A model generated the notes under the pieces. The model made no database searches, was not told the DNA's origin, and saw only the letters and a program-made list of their open reading frames with translations. A stretch of DNA of 42,492 nt from Caldifarciminota bacterium (GTDB taxonomy: Bacteria > Hydrothermota > Hydrothermia > WGAB01), in NCBI GenBank assembly GCA_015490555.1, contig WFXO01000083.1, positions 1 to 42,492 of the forward strand. Reading direction: 5' to 3'. This document shows, one piece after another, positions 1 to 6,808 of this stretch. Position 1 is the stretch's first letter. Each line of letters begins with the position of its first letter. A program made the translations under genes and the position numbers.

Positions 1-941
1 GGATCAGTCAGGGGGCCGGGGTCCTGGGAATCGGGATTCTTATTGATCGAAATGGGAATGACGTTTACACCTGTGGCCCCATTGGGCAGGGGGCCGGCCT
101 CTTCGGACTGGGCGTGCTGTGGGATCGACAAGGCCATGACCTCTACACCCTGGATTTCTTTGGGCAGGGGGCCGGAAATTTTGGCTTGGGTCTCCTCATA
201 GACAATGCCCGGAATGACCGCTATCTGGCGACCGATTGGGTCCAAGGGTTTGGGTCAGTCTGGGGCTACGGGCTTCTGGTGGACCAGTCGGGCAACGATC
301 TCTATTACGCAGGAGGCCATTACCGGCATCGTCCGCTGTTACCCGGCCATTATCGCTCTTTCGCGCAGGGGTTCGGGATGGGGTGGCGCAGCGATGCCTC
401 CGGCGGGATCGGGTTCCTCCTGGACGCCGATGGCAACGATGTCTATGCAGTAGAAGTCTACGGCCAGGGGACCAGTTACTGGTTCAGCCTGGGGATGCTG
501 GCGGACCTGGGAGGCAATGACTTCTACCAGGCCACAGAATACGCTCAGGGGGCAGGGATCCATCTCTCCCTTGGGATTCTCCACGACCGAGAAGGCGAGG
601 ACCATTACTACGCCAGCCGTGGCCCGTCCCAGGGGGAAGGCCATGACTACTCGGTCGGGATTTTGATCGATGAGGCGGGGAATGATGACTACACGGTATC
701 GGGAGGACTGGGGATCGGCTTATACAACTCCGTCGGGCTCTTCATTGACAAGGGGGGATCAGACACGTACATGATCCGAGAACGCTTAGGCCTCGGCGAC
801 GCGAATGCGAGCCGAGGCCTGTTTGGGATCGGCGTCTTTTTGGATCTGGGCGGTGCCGATGTCTACCCGAAAGGGCAACCGGCGAAGAACCGGGCCCTAT
901 GGATTCAGGGTACCTACGGGGTCGGCTACGACCGGGAGTGA
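1..941 (+). CDS. Repeat protein, probably a secreted beta-solenoid (5' end missing)
   Basis: The reading frame is open from the first bases of the window, so the ATG at 114 in the ORF track is internal and the true start lies upstream. The visible 312 or so residues are at least ten tandem copies of a unit of about 22-35 residues. The core is roughly QGxG-x(4-6)-GxLxD-x2-GNDxY, for example DRNGNDVY and DLGGNDFY. The regular Gly/Asp/Tyr spacing suggests a beta-solenoid or an RTX-like fold in which the Asp and Asn side chains could bind calcium, but it is not the canonical RTX nonapeptide. I do not recognise a named family or an enzymatic domain. No sorting domain is visible at the C-terminus. 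It ends convergently, 21 bp from the next gene on the other strand. That it is a gene is nearly certain; surface location and calcium binding are inference. Confidence 0.8.
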   Translation, partial: ISQGAGVLGIGILIDRNGNDVYTCGPIGQGAGLFGLGVLWDRQGHDLYTLDFFGQGAGNFGLGLLIDNARNDRYLATDWVQGFGSVWGYGLLVDQSGNDLYYAGGHYRHRPLLPGHYRSFAQGFGMGWRSDASGGIGFLLDADGNDVYAVEVYGQGTSYWFSLGMLADLGGNDFYQATEYAQGAGIHLSLGILHDREGEDHYYASRGPSQGEGHDYSVGILIDEAGNDDYTVSGGLGIGLYNSVGLFIDKGGSDTYMIRERLGLGDANASRGLFGIGVFLDLGGADVYPKGQPAKNRALWIQGTYGVGYDRE

Positions 942-962: not shown

Positions 963-1847
963 TCAAGAGTCCCCACCGTTTTTCCGTTCCCGGAACTCCA
1001 CAGTCCCACCCGCAATCTCGATCCGGATCTTGGCCTGAGGCTGCGTTCCAATGCGGTAGATCCCCGGAGCAACCTTCTGGAGCCGGCCCTGGAAGCCTTC
1101 AGAAAAGATCACTTCTTCACCGAGGACTTCTTCTTCCTCCGAGGCTCGCCACCCGGGAGGAAATCTGAACCGTTCATGTTTCACCTTGACCTCCACCTCA
1201 AATTCTGCCTCCCGGGGGATCAACAAAGTCAGATCTCCACCGGCCACTTTTACACGAAGGTCATGGAGTTCTTTAACATGAGCGGTAGCGTCTCCGCCCA
1301 TAATGGTCCACTCTCCTTTCTGCTGAAGATCGAAGATCTCGACATCACCGCCCATAATTTTGAGCGCCAGGGGTTTGTCTGGCGGGAGGGTGAGTGAGAG
1401 GTCACCGCCCATATCTTTGATCACGAGTTCCTCTCCCATGCGCTTCACGACACTGTGCATTCCTGAGCCCGAGACTTGAATTTCTTGGATCGGGCGGATA
1501 TGGATATCGAGGTCGCCTCCCATCACCTTCACGAGGACCCGACGCACCCGGTCTGTGGGGATCGTCTGTTTCATAGTTGCCCACCGGGTCTTCACACTGG
1601 ACTCTACAACATCCGGAACCGCGCGGATGAGTTCTGAAACCATGGAGCCGATGCCCCGCATGAATCCGGAGAATCCGGAGGGTCCTTCGCCCCAATGTTC
1701 ATGGACCCGATGGCGGGCACGATGATGCACATGTTCGTGTTTCGGAGGTCCGGCATGTTCCAGGGACTCCAGGAGCCGCGCCGCCTCCTCGGCGCTGATT
1801 TTCCCCTCTTCCAGCATCTTCAAAATTCTCAACCTTGGATCTTCCAT
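963..1847 (-). CDS. SHOCT-like module plus DUF4097-type beta-repeat protein
   Basis: This is a 294-residue protein. Residues 1-30 form a helical SHOCT-like module (LRILKMLEEGKISAEEAARLLESLE) of the kind found at the ends of DUF2089 and YvlB-like proteins. A His-rich linker follows (about 31-55). From about residue 100 there are repeated short strands with a GGD core (VMGGDLDI, DMGGDLSL, IMGGDVEI, AGGDLTL), which resembles the DUF4097/DUF4098 beta-helix seen in LiaG- and YvlB-like envelope-stress proteins. There is no signal peptide or clear transmembrane segment, so a cytoplasmic or peripheral membrane scaffold is likely. It is the last gene of a three-gene operon headed by a DUF2089 regulator and starts 2 bp after the preceding stop. 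The function is unknown; a role in envelope-stress sensing is inferred by analogy. Confidence 0.85.
   Translation of the reverse strand: MEDPRLRILKMLEEGKISAEEAARLLESLEHAGPPKHEHVHHRARHRVHEHWGEGPSGFSGFMRGIGSMVSELIRAVPDVVESSVKTRWATMKQTIPTDRVRRVLVKVMGGDLDIHIRPIQEIQVSGSGMHSVVKRMGEELVIKDMGGDLSLTLPPDKPLALKIMGGDVEIFDLQQKGEWTIMGGDATAHVKELHDLRVKVAGGDLTLLIPREAEFEVEVKVKHERFRFPPGWRASEEEEVLGEEVIFSEGFQGRLQKVAPGIYRIGTQPQAKIRIEIAGGTVEFRERKNGGDS
1784..1831. repeat. 48-bp near-identical repeat, copy A (inside the SHOCT-DUF4097 gene)
   Basis: The segment starting cctcctcggcgctgatttt matches 2158-2205 at 47 of 48 positions; the one difference is t versus a in the middle. Both copies encode the SHOCT-like module in the same frame. 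Identity at silent positions points to a recent duplication or gene conversion rather than protein-level conservation alone. Confidence 0.9.
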
Positions 1848-1849
1848 GG

Positions 1850-2218
1850 CTACTCCACCCAGATTTTGACTTGTGTTCCATCCGTGGATTCGAGGTCTAA
1901 AATTTCCCCAGCTTCAAACCCTTCTTGTTCCAAGGTTCGCAAGAGTTCACGGAGATCGATGTCATGCCCGTTTAACTTGGTCTGGACTTTGGAGGGAACC
2001 AAGTGGATCGCCCAACGAATAAAGGCCCAGGGCATCCGAATATTGACGGTTTCTTCATCGTCCACCACGCGGATGCGGAACCAGCGGATTCCGCGCTTTT
2101 TCGAGGGAAGACTCTGGGCCGAAGACGGGGGTTCTAACGCCGAGAGGAGCCGTTCGGCCTCCTCGGCGCTGATTTTCCCCACTTCCAGCATCTTCAAAAT
2201 TCTCAGGCGTTCCTCCAT
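1850..2218 (-). CDS. Small SHOCT-like domain protein
   Basis: This is a 122-residue protein. Its first 30 residues (LRILKMLEVGKISAEEAERLL) are almost the same as the N-terminus of the downstream gene, and the two share a 48-bp DNA segment with one mismatch. The remainder (about 40-122) is a compact mixed alpha/beta region containing RWFRIRVVDD, NIRMPWAFIRWAI and a C-terminal strand TQVKIWVE. It resembles the small domain that follows SHOCT-like modules in YvlB-like proteins, but I cannot name it with certainty. There is no signal peptide. It sits between the DUF2089 regulator and the SHOCT-DUF4097 protein with gaps of 1 and 2 bp, so the three are almost certainly co-transcribed and probably interact through the shared module. 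Confidence 0.8.
   Translation of the reverse strand: MEERLRILKMLEVGKISAEEAERLLSALEPPSSAQSLPSKKRGIRWFRIRVVDDEETVNIRMPWAFIRWAIHLVPSKVQTKLNGHDIDLRELLRTLEQEGFEAGEILDLESTDGTQVKIWVE
2158..2205. repeat. 48-bp near-identical repeat, copy B (inside the small SHOCT gene)
   Basis: This is the partner of the repeat at 1784-1831. The sequences upstream and downstream of the 48 bp diverge quickly, so the conserved tract covers only the helical module (GKISAEEA and flanks). The DUF2089 gene next door encodes a similar module with clearly diverged DNA. Confidence 0.9.
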
Positions 2219-2219
2219 G

Positions 2220-2600
2220 TTACACCTCTCCTTTCAAGAGACGTTCGGCCTCTTCAATGGTAATTTCGCCACGTTCCAGTCGGTCCAGGACCTCATTCAC
2301 ATCCACGGACTCCTCTTCGGTAATAGGCCCCGGCATGGCGGGATAGCCCAGGGCGTCCAGCACCTCATCCAGCCGGGCCCGTGCCGTGGGTCGAGACACC
2401 CCAAGTTCCTGTGCTACCATCGAGAGATTCCCTCGAAACTGAAGGAACAACCGGAGGAATGCCAGTTGCTCCTCCGTCAATTGCTCAAACTCCGTCCTTG
2501 GGAATGCCCCAACAATCTTGGTCCCGCACCGACTACATTGGTATTCCAAGACCTGTAACGGCCCTTCACACACCGGACAACGATGGAGTCGCTTCATCAT
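2220..2600 (-). CDS. DUF2089-family regulator (Zn ribbon, HTH, SHOCT-like tail)
   Basis: This is a 126-residue protein with the DUF2089 layout. An N-terminal zinc ribbon has two Cys pairs (CPVC and CSRC, about residues 9-25). A helix-turn-helix follows at about 55-85 (NLSMVAQELGVSRPTARARLDEVL). A C-terminal helical SHOCT-like module ends the protein (about 100-126, LERGEITIEEAERLLKGE). Proteins of this layout are thought to be transcriptional regulators. It is the first gene of an operon in which every product carries the same terminal module, which suggests the regulator senses or oligomerises with the other two proteins. The start could be either of two consecutive ATGs. The promoter lies 6 bp upstream of the first ATG and there is no Shine-Dalgarno, so the mRNA is probably leaderless. 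Confidence 0.88.
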   Translation of the reverse strand: MMKRLHRCPVCEGPLQVLEYQCSRCGTKIVGAFPRTEFEQLTEEQLAFLRLFLQFRGNLSMVAQELGVSRPTARARLDEVLDALGYPAMPGPITEEESVDVNEVLDRLERGEITIEEAERLLKGEV

Positions 2601-2663: not shown

Positions 2664-3710
2664 TTAGGAAAAGAGGGTATAGAGGGTTTGGTGCCACTGG
2701 TGCATCGGGCGGGTGTCCAGGACGGTATAGCGCTCAGGGCGCATCTGAGGAGCCACCTCGAGGGCCCGGGACAACATGTCTACGCTGACTCCCAAGGCCC
2801 TGGGATGGGTGGGTAGCCCAAGGGTTTCAAAGAGTGTTCGGACCCGCGAAGAAAGGGGGTGATCCTGAAAAGACAAGGCCATCAGGGTTCCGAGGGCGAC
2901 CTGTTCCCCGTGGAGTCCCGTGCCGATCCCCAGGTGATCCAGGGCATGGGAAATCAGGTGTTCCGAGCCAGAACAGGGTCGGGAAGAGCCTACGAGACCC
3001 ATCGCGATTCCTCCCAGGATCAGGCCCCGCGACAGAAGCCGCAGGGTCTCAAAGTCCTGAAGACTCGGAGACGCTGCATAAAGAAACGTCTGGGCACCGG
3101 TTTCGGCGAGGGTTGCCGCCAATTCGTCCACAGGCTCCTTGCCGTGTGCCTCGGCGAGCCGCCAATCCTGCACCGCGGAAAGGTTTGCGATGAGATCCCC
3201 GACCCCTGCCTTCAAGTACCGGATCGGTGCTCTCTGGACAATCTCCAGATCGACCAATACGCCAATCGGCATGACGGCCCCCACCGAATGGGTCTTCGCA
3301 ATCCCCTGGATTACAGCAACCGGCGATGCAATCCCATCGCTACTGAGCACCGTGGGGATCGCTACAAAAGGTAGGTTTTCCAGGTATGCGGTGTACTTGG
3401 CCACGTCTATGGGCTTCCCGCCACCAATGGCGAGGAACAATCGGGGACGGGTTTCCCGGACCTGGGAGCGAACCTTCTCGACGGCATGGATATCGCTTTT
3501 TTGAACCGTGATGTGGAACGCGGAGAGACCGCTGGCCTGGAGTCGTTGGAGGAGGTCTTGTGCCAATTCGGCAGTCAATCCCGGCCCGGAAACCAGAAGA
3601 ACAGGGCCCTGCGAAAGATGGTGTTCCTGAAGGATCGAAGGGATCTTGGCCCAGAGTCCGATATCCAACCGGATCAACGCGGGAAGGGAAACCAGTCTCG
3701 GAGACGCCAT
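2664..3710 (-). CDS. egsA: sn-glycerol-1-phosphate dehydrogenase (EgsA/AraM family)
   Basis: This 348-residue NAD(P)H-dependent dehydrogenase reduces dihydroxyacetone phosphate to sn-glycerol-1-phosphate, the backbone of archaeal-type lipids. It has GGGKP at 96-100 for the dinucleotide, IPTVLSSDGIASP at about 118-130, and the three metal ligands expected in this family: Asp172 in GVGDLIA, His251 in SGSEHLISHALD and His267 in LHGEQ. The pattern matches archaeal G1PDH and bacterial AraM better than glycerol dehydrogenase. The ORF track starts it at 4085, but that extension overlaps the GH57 gene. The ATG at 3710 lies 2 bp after the GH57 stop (TGA-GC-ATG), so translation is probably coupled. There is no good Shine-Dalgarno. 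No geranylgeranylglyceryl phosphate synthase is in the window, so whether the product enters ether lipids is open. Confidence 0.86.
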   Translation of the reverse strand: MASPRLVSLPALIRLDIGLWAKIPSILQEHHLSQGPVLLVSGPGLTAELAQDLLQRLQASGLSAFHITVQKSDIHAVEKVRSQVRETRPRLFLAIGGGKPIDVAKYTAYLENLPFVAIPTVLSSDGIASPVAVIQGIAKTHSVGAVMPIGVLVDLEIVQRAPIRYLKAGVGDLIANLSAVQDWRLAEAHGKEPVDELAATLAETGAQTFLYAASPSLQDFETLRLLSRGLILGGIAMGLVGSSRPCSGSEHLISHALDHLGIGTGLHGEQVALGTLMALSFQDHPLSSRVRTLFETLGLPTHPRALGVSVDMLSRALEVAPQMRPERYTVLDTRPMHQWHQTLYTLFS

Positions 3711-3712
3711 GC

Positions 3713-6700
3713 TCAGGGAATGCGGACGGACGGAACTAAGGTATAAGGAGGCGAAAGGAGTTGGGATTGGGAGACCGAGGCATCGGAAGGGTCTAAGAGG
3801 TCCATCACCGGGGGATCTTGAGGGGATTTTCGACCTCCCAATGTCCACTGACCGGGTTGAGGGTCTAAGGGCCGAACCTGGTCTTCCGCATATCCATCCT
3901 GGGAACAAACCAGGATGGTCAAGGCATCTCCAGACTTCAGTTGAAGCAGAGAATGTGGGACTTCCACGACCACGTGATTCCCCTCGGCCCAGGCCTTGAA
4001 GGCGCCAGCCTGGACCCGTCCGGAGGCATCCATGTACTCCAGGCCATATTCTGGCCAGCCGGCGATTTTGAGACGAGCAGACCAAGGCGTAGAAGGGTCA
4101 AAATGGAGTCCCCCCAATGCAGGAGAGCCGGCGTCCGTCCTCTGTTTGGGTGCACCGGGCTGGTGTACGTAGACCCAGATCAAGGGGTGGGAGAACCCCA
4201 AGGGGGCGTTCCAAGGGTTCGGCAAATCCTGGAAGGTCAACACCCAATAGTCTGCATCCGTGCCTCGATAGAGCGCAAATTTTGTAAGATCGAAGATCCC
4301 GGGGGTAAAGACCGGATCCGTCGGATATTGATAGGTTCCGGGACCGTGATCGTCGCCGACCGGGTCCGAGATCTCGAGGATCTTGGGGAGGTCGGACCAG
4401 GCGGGCCTTTTTTGGCCGGGGGCCATCACGCCCCCGGTTGTCGTCGGGAATGAACCTCCTACGATGGGAGAATCGAGGACCGCAGGGGGAGTCTTACCTA
4501 AAGCCGTGTAGACAGTTTTCAGGGTCTTTCGGAACATGTCATCAAAGCGTATGTCCCCGCCGGGGCTGGTCTGATCGTTGCCAAACCACCAGAACCAATC
4601 GGAGCCCTCCGCTGCCATCATGGCGAGCCGTGCCGATTCTACCTGAGGGGGCGTCAGATCATCCTGAGCCAGGAACTGGTCCAAATCGCGTCGAACCCGA
4701 CCCAGGATCTCCCATGCTCGATTTTCCTCGCGTTCACCGATCCAGGTCGAGAAGTCTGCACTAATCCAGGAGCCTGCGAACAGGTGATCGATCGTTGCAG
4801 AGGGGGGATATTGTTCCAGGTATTCCGAAACGGTGACCGTTCGGATCCAAGGAGTTTCTTGAAGTTGGCGATAAAAGGCATGGAAGAATTCCTTGGCATC
4901 GTGAGGATACCATTCCCAGGCGTTTTCACCGTCCAAAATCACGGTCACCAACGGGGGAATCGGTTGATTTGCCAGGGCCTTATGGATCGCGTACAGGGCC
5001 TGTACAAAGTCATTGGCAGCGGCCACAGGGTCCATGGATTTGTAACGGAACCCGATCCGGTCTGACAGATCCGTATCGCGGAACACCATGAACACGGTAT
5101 CCTTTTGTCCAATGACGCGGTAGGGGCGATAGCGTTGACTCATCGAGACCATGGTTTGGCCCAGGGATCGAGCCAACACCTGGACGTCCGAGGCGATCCA
5201 TCGGACCCCGGCTTCCCGGAAAAGATCCACGACAGCGTCTGCTACGGCCCCCTCGGCCGGCCACAAGCCCTTCGGAGGTCGGGCGAAACGCTTCTGATAA
5301 AACTGAACGGCCTTTTGGACATGCCAGGCTGCATCCTGGGGATAGTGGAACCGTGGAGGTAACGGGGTCAGGGGCATGGCCTCCTTCGCCAAATCGGTGT
5401 CATAGATCAACGGCAAAATCGGGTGATAAAAGGGTGTGGTAATGACCTCAATCTGGCCTTTTTCTTGGAGTTCCCGGTGGATGGGAACAACCGCCTTCAG
5501 GATCTTAAATTGGAGGTCGATCACCGCACGCTTGTCTTCTTCAGAGAAATCGCGGCCTTTCTCAATCCAGGGTTGGACGGTGACCGTGTCGCCGGTCGGT
5601 AAGACCACCGGCCCTTCCTGGAAATCCGGATCAAACCAGGCCAAATTGAACCACATTTGCAAGTCCCGCCAGTCCTGTGTTGTAAAGCGTGGGATCGAGG
5701 CCTGAACATCCACACTCCCATCGGACCTCATGATCCGCTTTAAGCGGAGTTCCCGATAGCGGGGCCAAATGTCTATCATGTTGTCCCAGTTGGCGGAGAA
5801 GAAGTGTTCCAGGAGGAAGGCCTTGTCCTCGTCCGTCAGAGAAGCAGCATCCTTGAGGGTTAATCGGACATAGCGATCGGGGCTCTTACCAGCCTCGTAC
5901 CGTTGAATGAGATCTTCCAGTTGCATAAGGAGGACCGGGGTCAGATTGATGGTCACGTGAACCTGGGGGTATTGTTGGAGGATGGCGGCCATGTCGTAGT
6001 AGTCTTTGATGGCATGGAGGCGGACCCAGGGTTCTTCATATTCACCGGTCTCAGGATCTTTGAAATACCGAGGCTGATGTTGATGCCAGACAATGGCGAG
6101 ATAAACCGGAGAACCCAGGGCGGGCAATTCGGGTCCGATGGGCTTCTCCGATGTGCCCTGTTTCGGAACTTCTTGGAGGATTTTGCCGTCTTCGGTCAGG
6201 ACAAACACCGAGTTAAAACCGCCATAGCCATCATCTACACGTGCAGGATTCAGGGGATCCTCGCGCCACTCGGTGCCATTGATGACAAACTTGTATTGGT
6301 AGACCCCTGGATTCAAGGGAACCACTGCTTCCCAATGGTCTTTCACGCGTTTCATCGGCAACGCCGTGGGGGCCCATTGATTGAATGTGCCAGCGAGGTA
6401 TACTTGTTGGGCCTCCGGTGCCATAAAACGAAACACGACCCCGTTCGGGGTTGCTTCCAGGTTCTTGAAGGCCTTGCCACCGGTCACGATCAGAACCGAA
6501 TTGAAGCCCCCATAGGGATCCGGGGTCTTGAGGGGGTTGTCAGGATCTTCAAGCCAACGAGAACCGTCTACGACAAACTTGTACTCGTATCGGCCCGGGG
6601 GGAGGGATAAGGCAACCTGCCAAACACCCGGCTTGATTTCCTTGAGGGGTTGGGCTTGAGGGTTCCACTGATTGAACGTTCCGGCCACGGTGACGGACTG

Positions 6701-6808
6701 AGCACGGATATTCAACGTAAAGACGACCTTGCCGTCTTTTTCTTCAACCTTTCCGAACAACACCACAGGGATGAAAAGCCAGATCCATCGGTTTCGACAT
6801 GCCCTCAT
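3713..6808 (-). CDS. Secreted GH57 glycoside hydrolase (amylopullulanase type) with two CBM48-like domains
   Basis: This is a 1031-residue protein. An N-terminal signal peptide (about 1-19) is followed by two tandem CBM48/AMPK-type glycogen-binding modules (about 25-110 and 118-210), each with an AGTFNQW motif. The GH57 catalytic domain begins near 235 with HQHQP and continues through WVRLHAIKDYYDMA. It has GLWPAEGA (motif 3, likely nucleophile Glu) and ILDGENAWEWY (motif 4, likely acid/base Asp), as in family-57 amylopullulanases and alpha-amylases. The C-terminal region (about 780-1000) resembles the glucodextranase C-terminal domain found on other starch-acting enzymes. It probably hydrolyses alpha-1,4 and alpha-1,6 glucans outside the cytoplasm. 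A strong Shine-Dalgarno (AAGGAGG) precedes the ATG at 6808. The G1PDH gene follows after 2 bp. Exact bond specificity cannot be read from sequence. Confidence 0.92.
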   Translation of the reverse strand: MRACRNRWIWLFIPVVLFGKVEEKDGKVVFTLNIRAQSVTVAGTFNQWNPQAQPLKEIKPGVWQVALSLPPGRYEYKFVVDGSRWLEDPDNPLKTPDPYGGFNSVLIVTGGKAFKNLEATPNGVVFRFMAPEAQQVYLAGTFNQWAPTALPMKRVKDHWEAVVPLNPGVYQYKFVINGTEWREDPLNPARVDDGYGGFNSVFVLTEDGKILQEVPKQGTSEKPIGPELPALGSPVYLAIVWHQHQPRYFKDPETGEYEEPWVRLHAIKDYYDMAAILQQYPQVHVTINLTPVLLMQLEDLIQRYEAGKSPDRYVRLTLKDAASLTDEDKAFLLEHFFSANWDNMIDIWPRYRELRLKRIMRSDGSVDVQASIPRFTTQDWRDLQMWFNLAWFDPDFQEGPVVLPTGDTVTVQPWIEKGRDFSEEDKRAVIDLQFKILKAVVPIHRELQEKGQIEVITTPFYHPILPLIYDTDLAKEAMPLTPLPPRFHYPQDAAWHVQKAVQFYQKRFARPPKGLWPAEGAVADAVVDLFREAGVRWIASDVQVLARSLGQTMVSMSQRYRPYRVIGQKDTVFMVFRDTDLSDRIGFRYKSMDPVAAANDFVQALYAIHKALANQPIPPLVTVILDGENAWEWYPHDAKEFFHAFYRQLQETPWIRTVTVSEYLEQYPPSATIDHLFAGSWISADFSTWIGEREENRAWEILGRVRRDLDQFLAQDDLTPPQVESARLAMMAAEGSDWFWWFGNDQTSPGGDIRFDDMFRKTLKTVYTALGKTPPAVLDSPIVGGSFPTTTGGVMAPGQKRPAWSDLPKILEISDPVGDDHGPGTYQYPTDPVFTPGIFDLTKFALYRGTDADYWVLTFQDLPNPWNAPLGFSHPLIWVYVHQPGAPKQRTDAGSPALGGLHFDPSTPWSARLKIAGWPEYGLEYMDASGRVQAGAFKAWAEGNHVVVEVPHSLLQLKSGDALTILVCSQDGYAEDQVRPLDPQPGQWTLGGRKSPQDPPVMDLLDPSDASVSQSQLLSPPYTLVPSVRIP

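Follow-up and report, generated by a model that had tools for sequence, protein, structure and literature searches.

The known mixed-membrane case among FCB bacteria is Ca. Cloacimonetes. In Cloacimonetes MAGs, genes for GGGP synthase (GGGPS), DGGGP synthase (DGGGPS) and geranylgeranyl reductase (GGR) were found, and neither egsA nor araM (Villanueva et al. 2020, PMC7852524). PG-archaeol was produced in E. coli by the Cloacimonetes GGGPS and DGGGPS; furthermore, CarS is also missing from Cloacimonetes, and CdsA is held to substitute for it (PMC7852524). Genomes combining an sn-glycerol-1-phosphate dehydrogenase (G1PDH) with GGGPS and DGGGPS were reported from Firmicutes, Actinobacteria and Fibrobacteres; Fibrobacteres and Cloacimonetes are the only FCB phyla named there with a G1PDH, and WOR-3 appears in Table 1 (Coleman et al. 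2019, PMC6431249). In B. subtilis, the bacterial G1PDH AraM supplies the prenylglyceryl phosphate synthase PcrB, in a pathway that does without the DGGGPS step.

Here, we describe a G1PDH-like gene located on a DNA stretch of 42,492 nucleotides (contig WFXO01000083.1, referred to as the window) from a bacterium of candidate phylum WOR-3, which we take to be related to the FCB group. The gene itself is an additional member of a known enzyme family. New in comparison with the known mixed-membrane case are the G1PDH together with an ether-lipid gene set in WOR-3, and the apparent loss of G3P synthesis in one WOR-3 family. The WOR-3 papers found in the open-licence literature do not discuss ether lipids, and earlier reports elsewhere are possible; the text of the paper on the cultured WOR-3 isolate strain sy37 mentions neither lipids nor fatty acids.

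Identification of the G1PDH-like gene

The gene and its diagnostic residues, the latter located by codon mapping and alignment, are the following.

2664..3710, minus strand, G1PDH-like gene encoding 348 amino acids (ATG at 3710, stop codon TAA at 2664)
3321..3341, minus strand, SDGIASP motif, residues 124-130, a G1PDH signature
3195..3197, minus strand, codon of metal ligand D172
2958..2960, minus strand, codon of metal ligand H251, within SSRPCSGSEHLISH
2910..2912, minus strand, codon of metal ligand H267, within LHGEQV

A longer open reading frame starting from TTG at 4085 was discarded; it overruns the upstream gene, and the homologues fit the 348-amino-acid form. Residues D102, K105, D125, D172, H251, H255 and H267 were invariant in 134 of 134 aligned homologues, and the motifs SDGIASP and SSRPCSGSEH are both intact. 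The ligands Asp172, His251 and His267 and the SDGIASP motif named in a preliminary description of this DNA could thus be assigned to their codons. Glycerol dehydrogenases use the same D/H/H metal ligands as G1PDH; therefore, this set alone cannot distinguish between the two enzymes. Motifs, scores and fold ranking do separate the window protein from glycerol dehydrogenase.

Pfam matches of the protein were Fe-ADH_2 and Fe-ADH. The best NCBIfam model was PRK00843 (NAD(P)-dependent G1PDH) with 292 bits as compared to 90 bits for GldA and 24 bits for AroB; the curated cut-off of PRK00843 is 413 bits, and the protein hence lies below the archaeal EgsA equivalog level. The nearest PDB chains by sequence were 5FB3 (a G1PDH), 3CE9 and the M. 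jannaschii G1PDH. On deposition, the Clostridium protein 3CE9 was named a glycerol dehydrogenase, a function that is, to our knowledge, putative. An AlphaFold2 model was built from the window protein and nine relatives (mean pLDDT 93). In a Foldseek search, this predicted model came closest to 3CE9 (TM 0.89), followed by the archaeal G1PDHs and then by GldA enzymes and B. subtilis AraM. Judged by its sequence and predicted fold, the protein is G1PDH-like, with G1PDH ahead of glycerol dehydrogenase as had been claimed, the fold ranking agreeing with the bit scores. It would catalyze the conversion of DHAP and NAD(P)H to sn-glycerol-1-phosphate (G1P).

The archaeal G1PDHs (EgsA; M. jannaschii 4RFL/4RGQ, 5FB3) share with the window protein the fold (TM about 0.8), the D/H/H site and motifs of the SDGIASP and SRPxSGSEH types; however, identity in the fold alignment is 28-33%, and the window protein lies outside the archaeal clan in the tree. 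B. subtilis AraM (9H4X) showed about 21% identity and a fold rank of 20.

Phylogeny of the G1PDH

A tree of 58 sequences was calculated with LG+C20+PMSF and without outgroup. The archaeal G1PDHs formed a single clan (support 99/95); the window protein fell outside that clan, as did all the WOR-3 and other bacterial sequences, with weak inner branches among them. Forcing the window protein onto the archaeal side was not rejected (p-AU 0.096). The window protein and L006, from the same family, stood apart although gene order marks them as orthologues, and uniting them was not rejected either (p-AU 0.18); therefore, the placement of this single gene is weak. Apparently, the window G1PDH belongs with the bacteria in this tree, although the support is not decisive; a recent transfer from archaea, while compatible with the topology test, is not favoured. 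The tree agrees with the deep bacterial G1PDH clan described by Coleman et al. (2019, PMC6431249).

The term "archaeal-type" used in the preliminary description fits the chemistry. As a statement about ancestry it found no support, given the score below the PRK00843 cut-off and an archaeal clan that omits the window protein, the p-AU value for the archaeal placement being that given above. The best named match, L074 from a Desulfurococcales MAG, was considered as a mis-binned WOR-3 contig; it clusters with another Desulfurococcales sequence (99/91) and was therefore regarded as archaeal.

Gene neighbourhood

The genes flanking the G1PDH gene were assigned by domain search and, for the GH57 gene, also by comparison with the relative G055.

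3713..6808, minus strand, gene of a GH57 amylase-type enzyme carrying CBM48 modules, immediately upstream of the G1PDH gene
963-2600, minus strand, three genes encoding DUF2089, SHOCT-like and DUF4097 (toastrack) proteins

The GH57 protein contains two CBM48/AMPK-type modules and a glucodextranase C-module. Coupling to the gene of this starch-degrading enzyme, already remarked upon, is indeed tight: 2 bp separate the GH57 stop codon from the G1PDH ATG in the window and 1 bp in G055, which belongs to another genus of the same family (f1) and has conserved the gene order (64% identity). The pair was present in both genomes of family f1 examined, i.e. the window genome and G055. A search across the WOR-3 phylum detected it in family f1 only, with different neighbours in other families; therefore, the pairing tells little about function, and the idea of amylase and lipid synthesis being functionally linked was dropped. 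The DUF2089, SHOCT-like and DUF4097 genes begin 63 bp downstream of the G1PDH gene and were not found beside G1PDH in G055. Additionally, a 275-amino-acid open reading frame (window 114-941) has repeated D-x-x-GND-Y motifs and falls into no Pfam family.

Ether-lipid genes of the source genome

The source genome comprises 2.16 Mb on 109 contigs and is 94% complete. A search for the GGGP and DGGGP synthases detected both by profile and PDB match, plus a GGR-family reductase.

Contig C17, L001 1456-2169, GGGPS
Contig C50, L004 1423-2334, minus strand, DGGGPS (UbiA family)

GGGPS reached 184 bits at a GGGP equivalog cut-off of 162, with the GGGPS 4JEJ as best PDB match. The gene of the GGR-family reductase (TIGR02032, 218 bits at a cut-off of 159; best PDB match 3OZ2) precedes and overlaps the GGGPS gene in one operon, whereas in Cloacimonetes GGGPS adjoins DGGGPS. 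The best model for DGGGPS was PRK12882 with 196 bits, under its cut-off of 296, and the only close PDB match was 6M31, deposited as DGGGP synthase. Three UbiA proteins are encoded, one DGGGPS-like and two MenA-type by score. A MenA-type UbiA protein (L003 979-2325) has about 150 additional residues at its N-terminus, which resemble a flavin-binding (PNPOx-like) domain. CdsA was found in the source genome and CarS was not; going by the Cloacimonetes case, which does without CarS, the pathway would not require it. The GpsA and PlsY genes adjoin on contig C98; thus, the bacterial G3P route is also encoded. An FGGY kinase gene, possibly that of a glycerol kinase, is located on contig C70. We rejected the possibility of a contaminating archaeal contig, as the GH57-G1PDH pair is kept in the second family genome and the GGGPS contig bears a bacterial rho.

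We propose an archaeal-style ether-lipid route as the most likely destination of G1P from the window G1PDH, and we hold this with good though not full confidence; the gene set, the operon structure, the catalytic residues and the co-occurrence described below point to it, whereas enzyme activity, substrate flow and membrane lipids are predicted from them. G1PDH would convert DHAP to G1P with NAD(P)H, GGGPS would attach the first geranylgeranyl chain to G1P and DGGGPS the second one. The chains would then be saturated by geranylgeranyl reductase, and CdsA, without CarS, would activate the product for head groups. As the GpsA/PlsY route would operate in parallel, a mixed, heterochiral membrane is predicted, and to judge from its genes the source bacterium may build one. 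Since GpsA is present, glycerolipids could be made without the ether-lipid pathway. The location of the G1PDH gene, away from the other ether-lipid genes and beside the amylase gene, speaks against a lipid role, and so does the absence of CarS.

Other ether-lipid genes are thus not absent from this WOR-3 genome; GGGPS, DGGGPS and GGR are encoded alongside G1PDH, in line with the ether-lipid role in an FCB-related bacterium suggested earlier. Ca. Cloacimonetes has in common with it GGGPS, DGGGPS, GGR, the CdsA-type replacement for CarS and a parallel bacterial lipid route, but the Cloacimonetes MAGs lack egsA and araM whereas G1PDH is present in the WOR-3 genome. The bacteria with all three genes listed by Coleman et al. 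likewise combine a G1PDH with GGGPS and DGGGPS in one genome.

Distribution in the WOR-3 phylum

A sample of 147 WOR-3 species genomes was surveyed. G1PDH was detected in 70 genomes (69 were counted once one weak match had been dropped), GGGPS in 89, GpsA in 131 and a DGGGPS homologue in 88, the latter count being based on homology to one query and possibly including other UbiA enzymes, especially in family f8. GGGPS was present in 59 of the 69 G1PDH genomes (Fisher p 4e-9, relatedness ignored), and homologues of G1PDH, GGGPS and DGGGPS occurred jointly in 55 of the 147 species genomes. At family level, which provides the safer count, 18 families had both G1PDH and GGGPS, two G1PDH only, six GGGPS only and 11 neither (Fisher p 0.001, relatedness again ignored); GGGPS hence accompanies G1PDH in 18 of 20 G1PDH-bearing families. 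The link is not obligatory because families with only one of the two enzymes exist. The GGR-GGGPS gene pair recurs in families f1, f2, f4, f10, f11, f12, f14 and f28. The near-complete genomes of f11 (G050-G054) encode GGGPS and a DGGGPS homologue without G1PDH, with the GGR-GGGPS pair in G054.

Possible other uses of G1P

A nucleotidyltransferase gene was located directly upstream of G1PDH in families f3, f4, f10, f18 and f19 (L174, L175, L182-L184, L186, L188). The NCBIfam model that fits it best is that of inositol-1-phosphate cytidylyltransferase. Families f18 and f19 are the two G1PDH-only families; both have this gene and both lack GGGPS. Arenibacter (L075) has a similar gene pair, and the G1PDH homologue there is part of a polysaccharide cluster that also encodes a TarF-like glycerophosphotransferase. 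The gene order suggests that nucleotidyltransferase-paired G1PDHs may make CDP-glycerol from G1P. That the window enzyme, too, provides G1P for CDP-glycerol and a teichoic-acid-like surface polymer instead of lipids is unlikely: a search at E 1e-8 detected no such cytidylyltransferase in the window genome or in G055, and polymer genes are not adjacent to the window G1PDH. Therefore, the lipid role is the better account in the window genome. A similar cytidylyltransferase-like/G1PDH pair was also observed in Kerfeldbacteria (L087).

Still less probable is a main flow of G1P into acyl lipids via PlsY, which would yield heterochiral ester phospholipids and leave a minor role to the ether enzymes. 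The PlsY and PlsC enzymes of E. coli and B. subtilis can use either enantiomer of glycerol phosphate (PMC13400652), and PlsY is encoded in the source genome; however, GpsA is present there, adjoining PlsY, and GGGPS, DGGGPS and GGR have all been kept. We consider it highly improbable that the genes represent a system like AraM/PcrB, producing a minor heptaprenylglyceryl lipid. Bacillus does pair a G1PDH with a PcrB-family enzyme, but the WOR-3 prenyltransferase scores above the GGGPS equivalog cut-off, DGGGPS and GGR are present, and B. subtilis AraM is a more remote fold match than the archaeal G1PDHs. Finally, the window protein can hardly be a polyol dehydrogenase such as glycerol dehydrogenase. 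Although superfamily and metal ligands are shared and its closest solved structure, 3CE9, was deposited under the latter name, G1PDH outranks GldA in scores and fold ranks and the SDGIASP and SSRPCSGSEH motifs are retained.

G3P sources in family f12

Besides the ether-lipid route favoured for the window genome, the survey revealed a family, f12 (G001-G005; L155-L169), with five genomes from three genera that are 91-99% complete. G1PDH, GGGPS, PlsY and CdsA were present in all five and a DGGGPS homologue in four; G1PDH was intact in the alignment, and PlsX was found in at least G003. Next to the GGR-GGGPS pair, on its downstream side, stands an isoprenoid gene, encoding a GHMP kinase of the IspE type (L165-L169). 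A search for GpsA, FGGY kinase (glycerol kinase) and the C-terminal domain of GlpD detected none of them in the five genomes; seven other genomes tested lacked the GlpD domain as well, and this absence by itself does not set f12 apart. GpsA was missing from 5/5 genomes in f12 as compared to 11/142 elsewhere (Fisher p 8e-6). The distance between plsY and gpsA is at most 1.6 kb in 84 other WOR-3 genomes, which represent 21 families; f12 has kept the der-plsY segment, and gpsA is missing from it.

We tentatively suggest, while considering it somewhat doubtful, that f12 lost every recognisable G3P source and builds all its glycerolipids, PlsY-derived acyl lipids included, on G1P. Such acyl lipids are chemically feasible because the PlsY and PlsC of E. 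coli and B. subtilis accept both enantiomers. Import of G3P or an unrecognised G3P source in f12 is possible as well.

Significance

WOR-3 fills a gap in the FCB mixed-membrane case, as the Cloacimonetes genomes studied lacked the G1P-making enzyme. Family f12 goes further, for no glycerol-phosphate source other than G1PDH could be recognised in it. If all its glycerolipids are indeed built on G1P, f12 would represent bacteria that are across the lipid divide in backbone chirality, and G1P lipids, if confirmed there, would be a natural exception to the general use of G3P by bacteria. Whether mixed or reversed membranes are stable, a question central to LUCA, could then be tested in living organisms.
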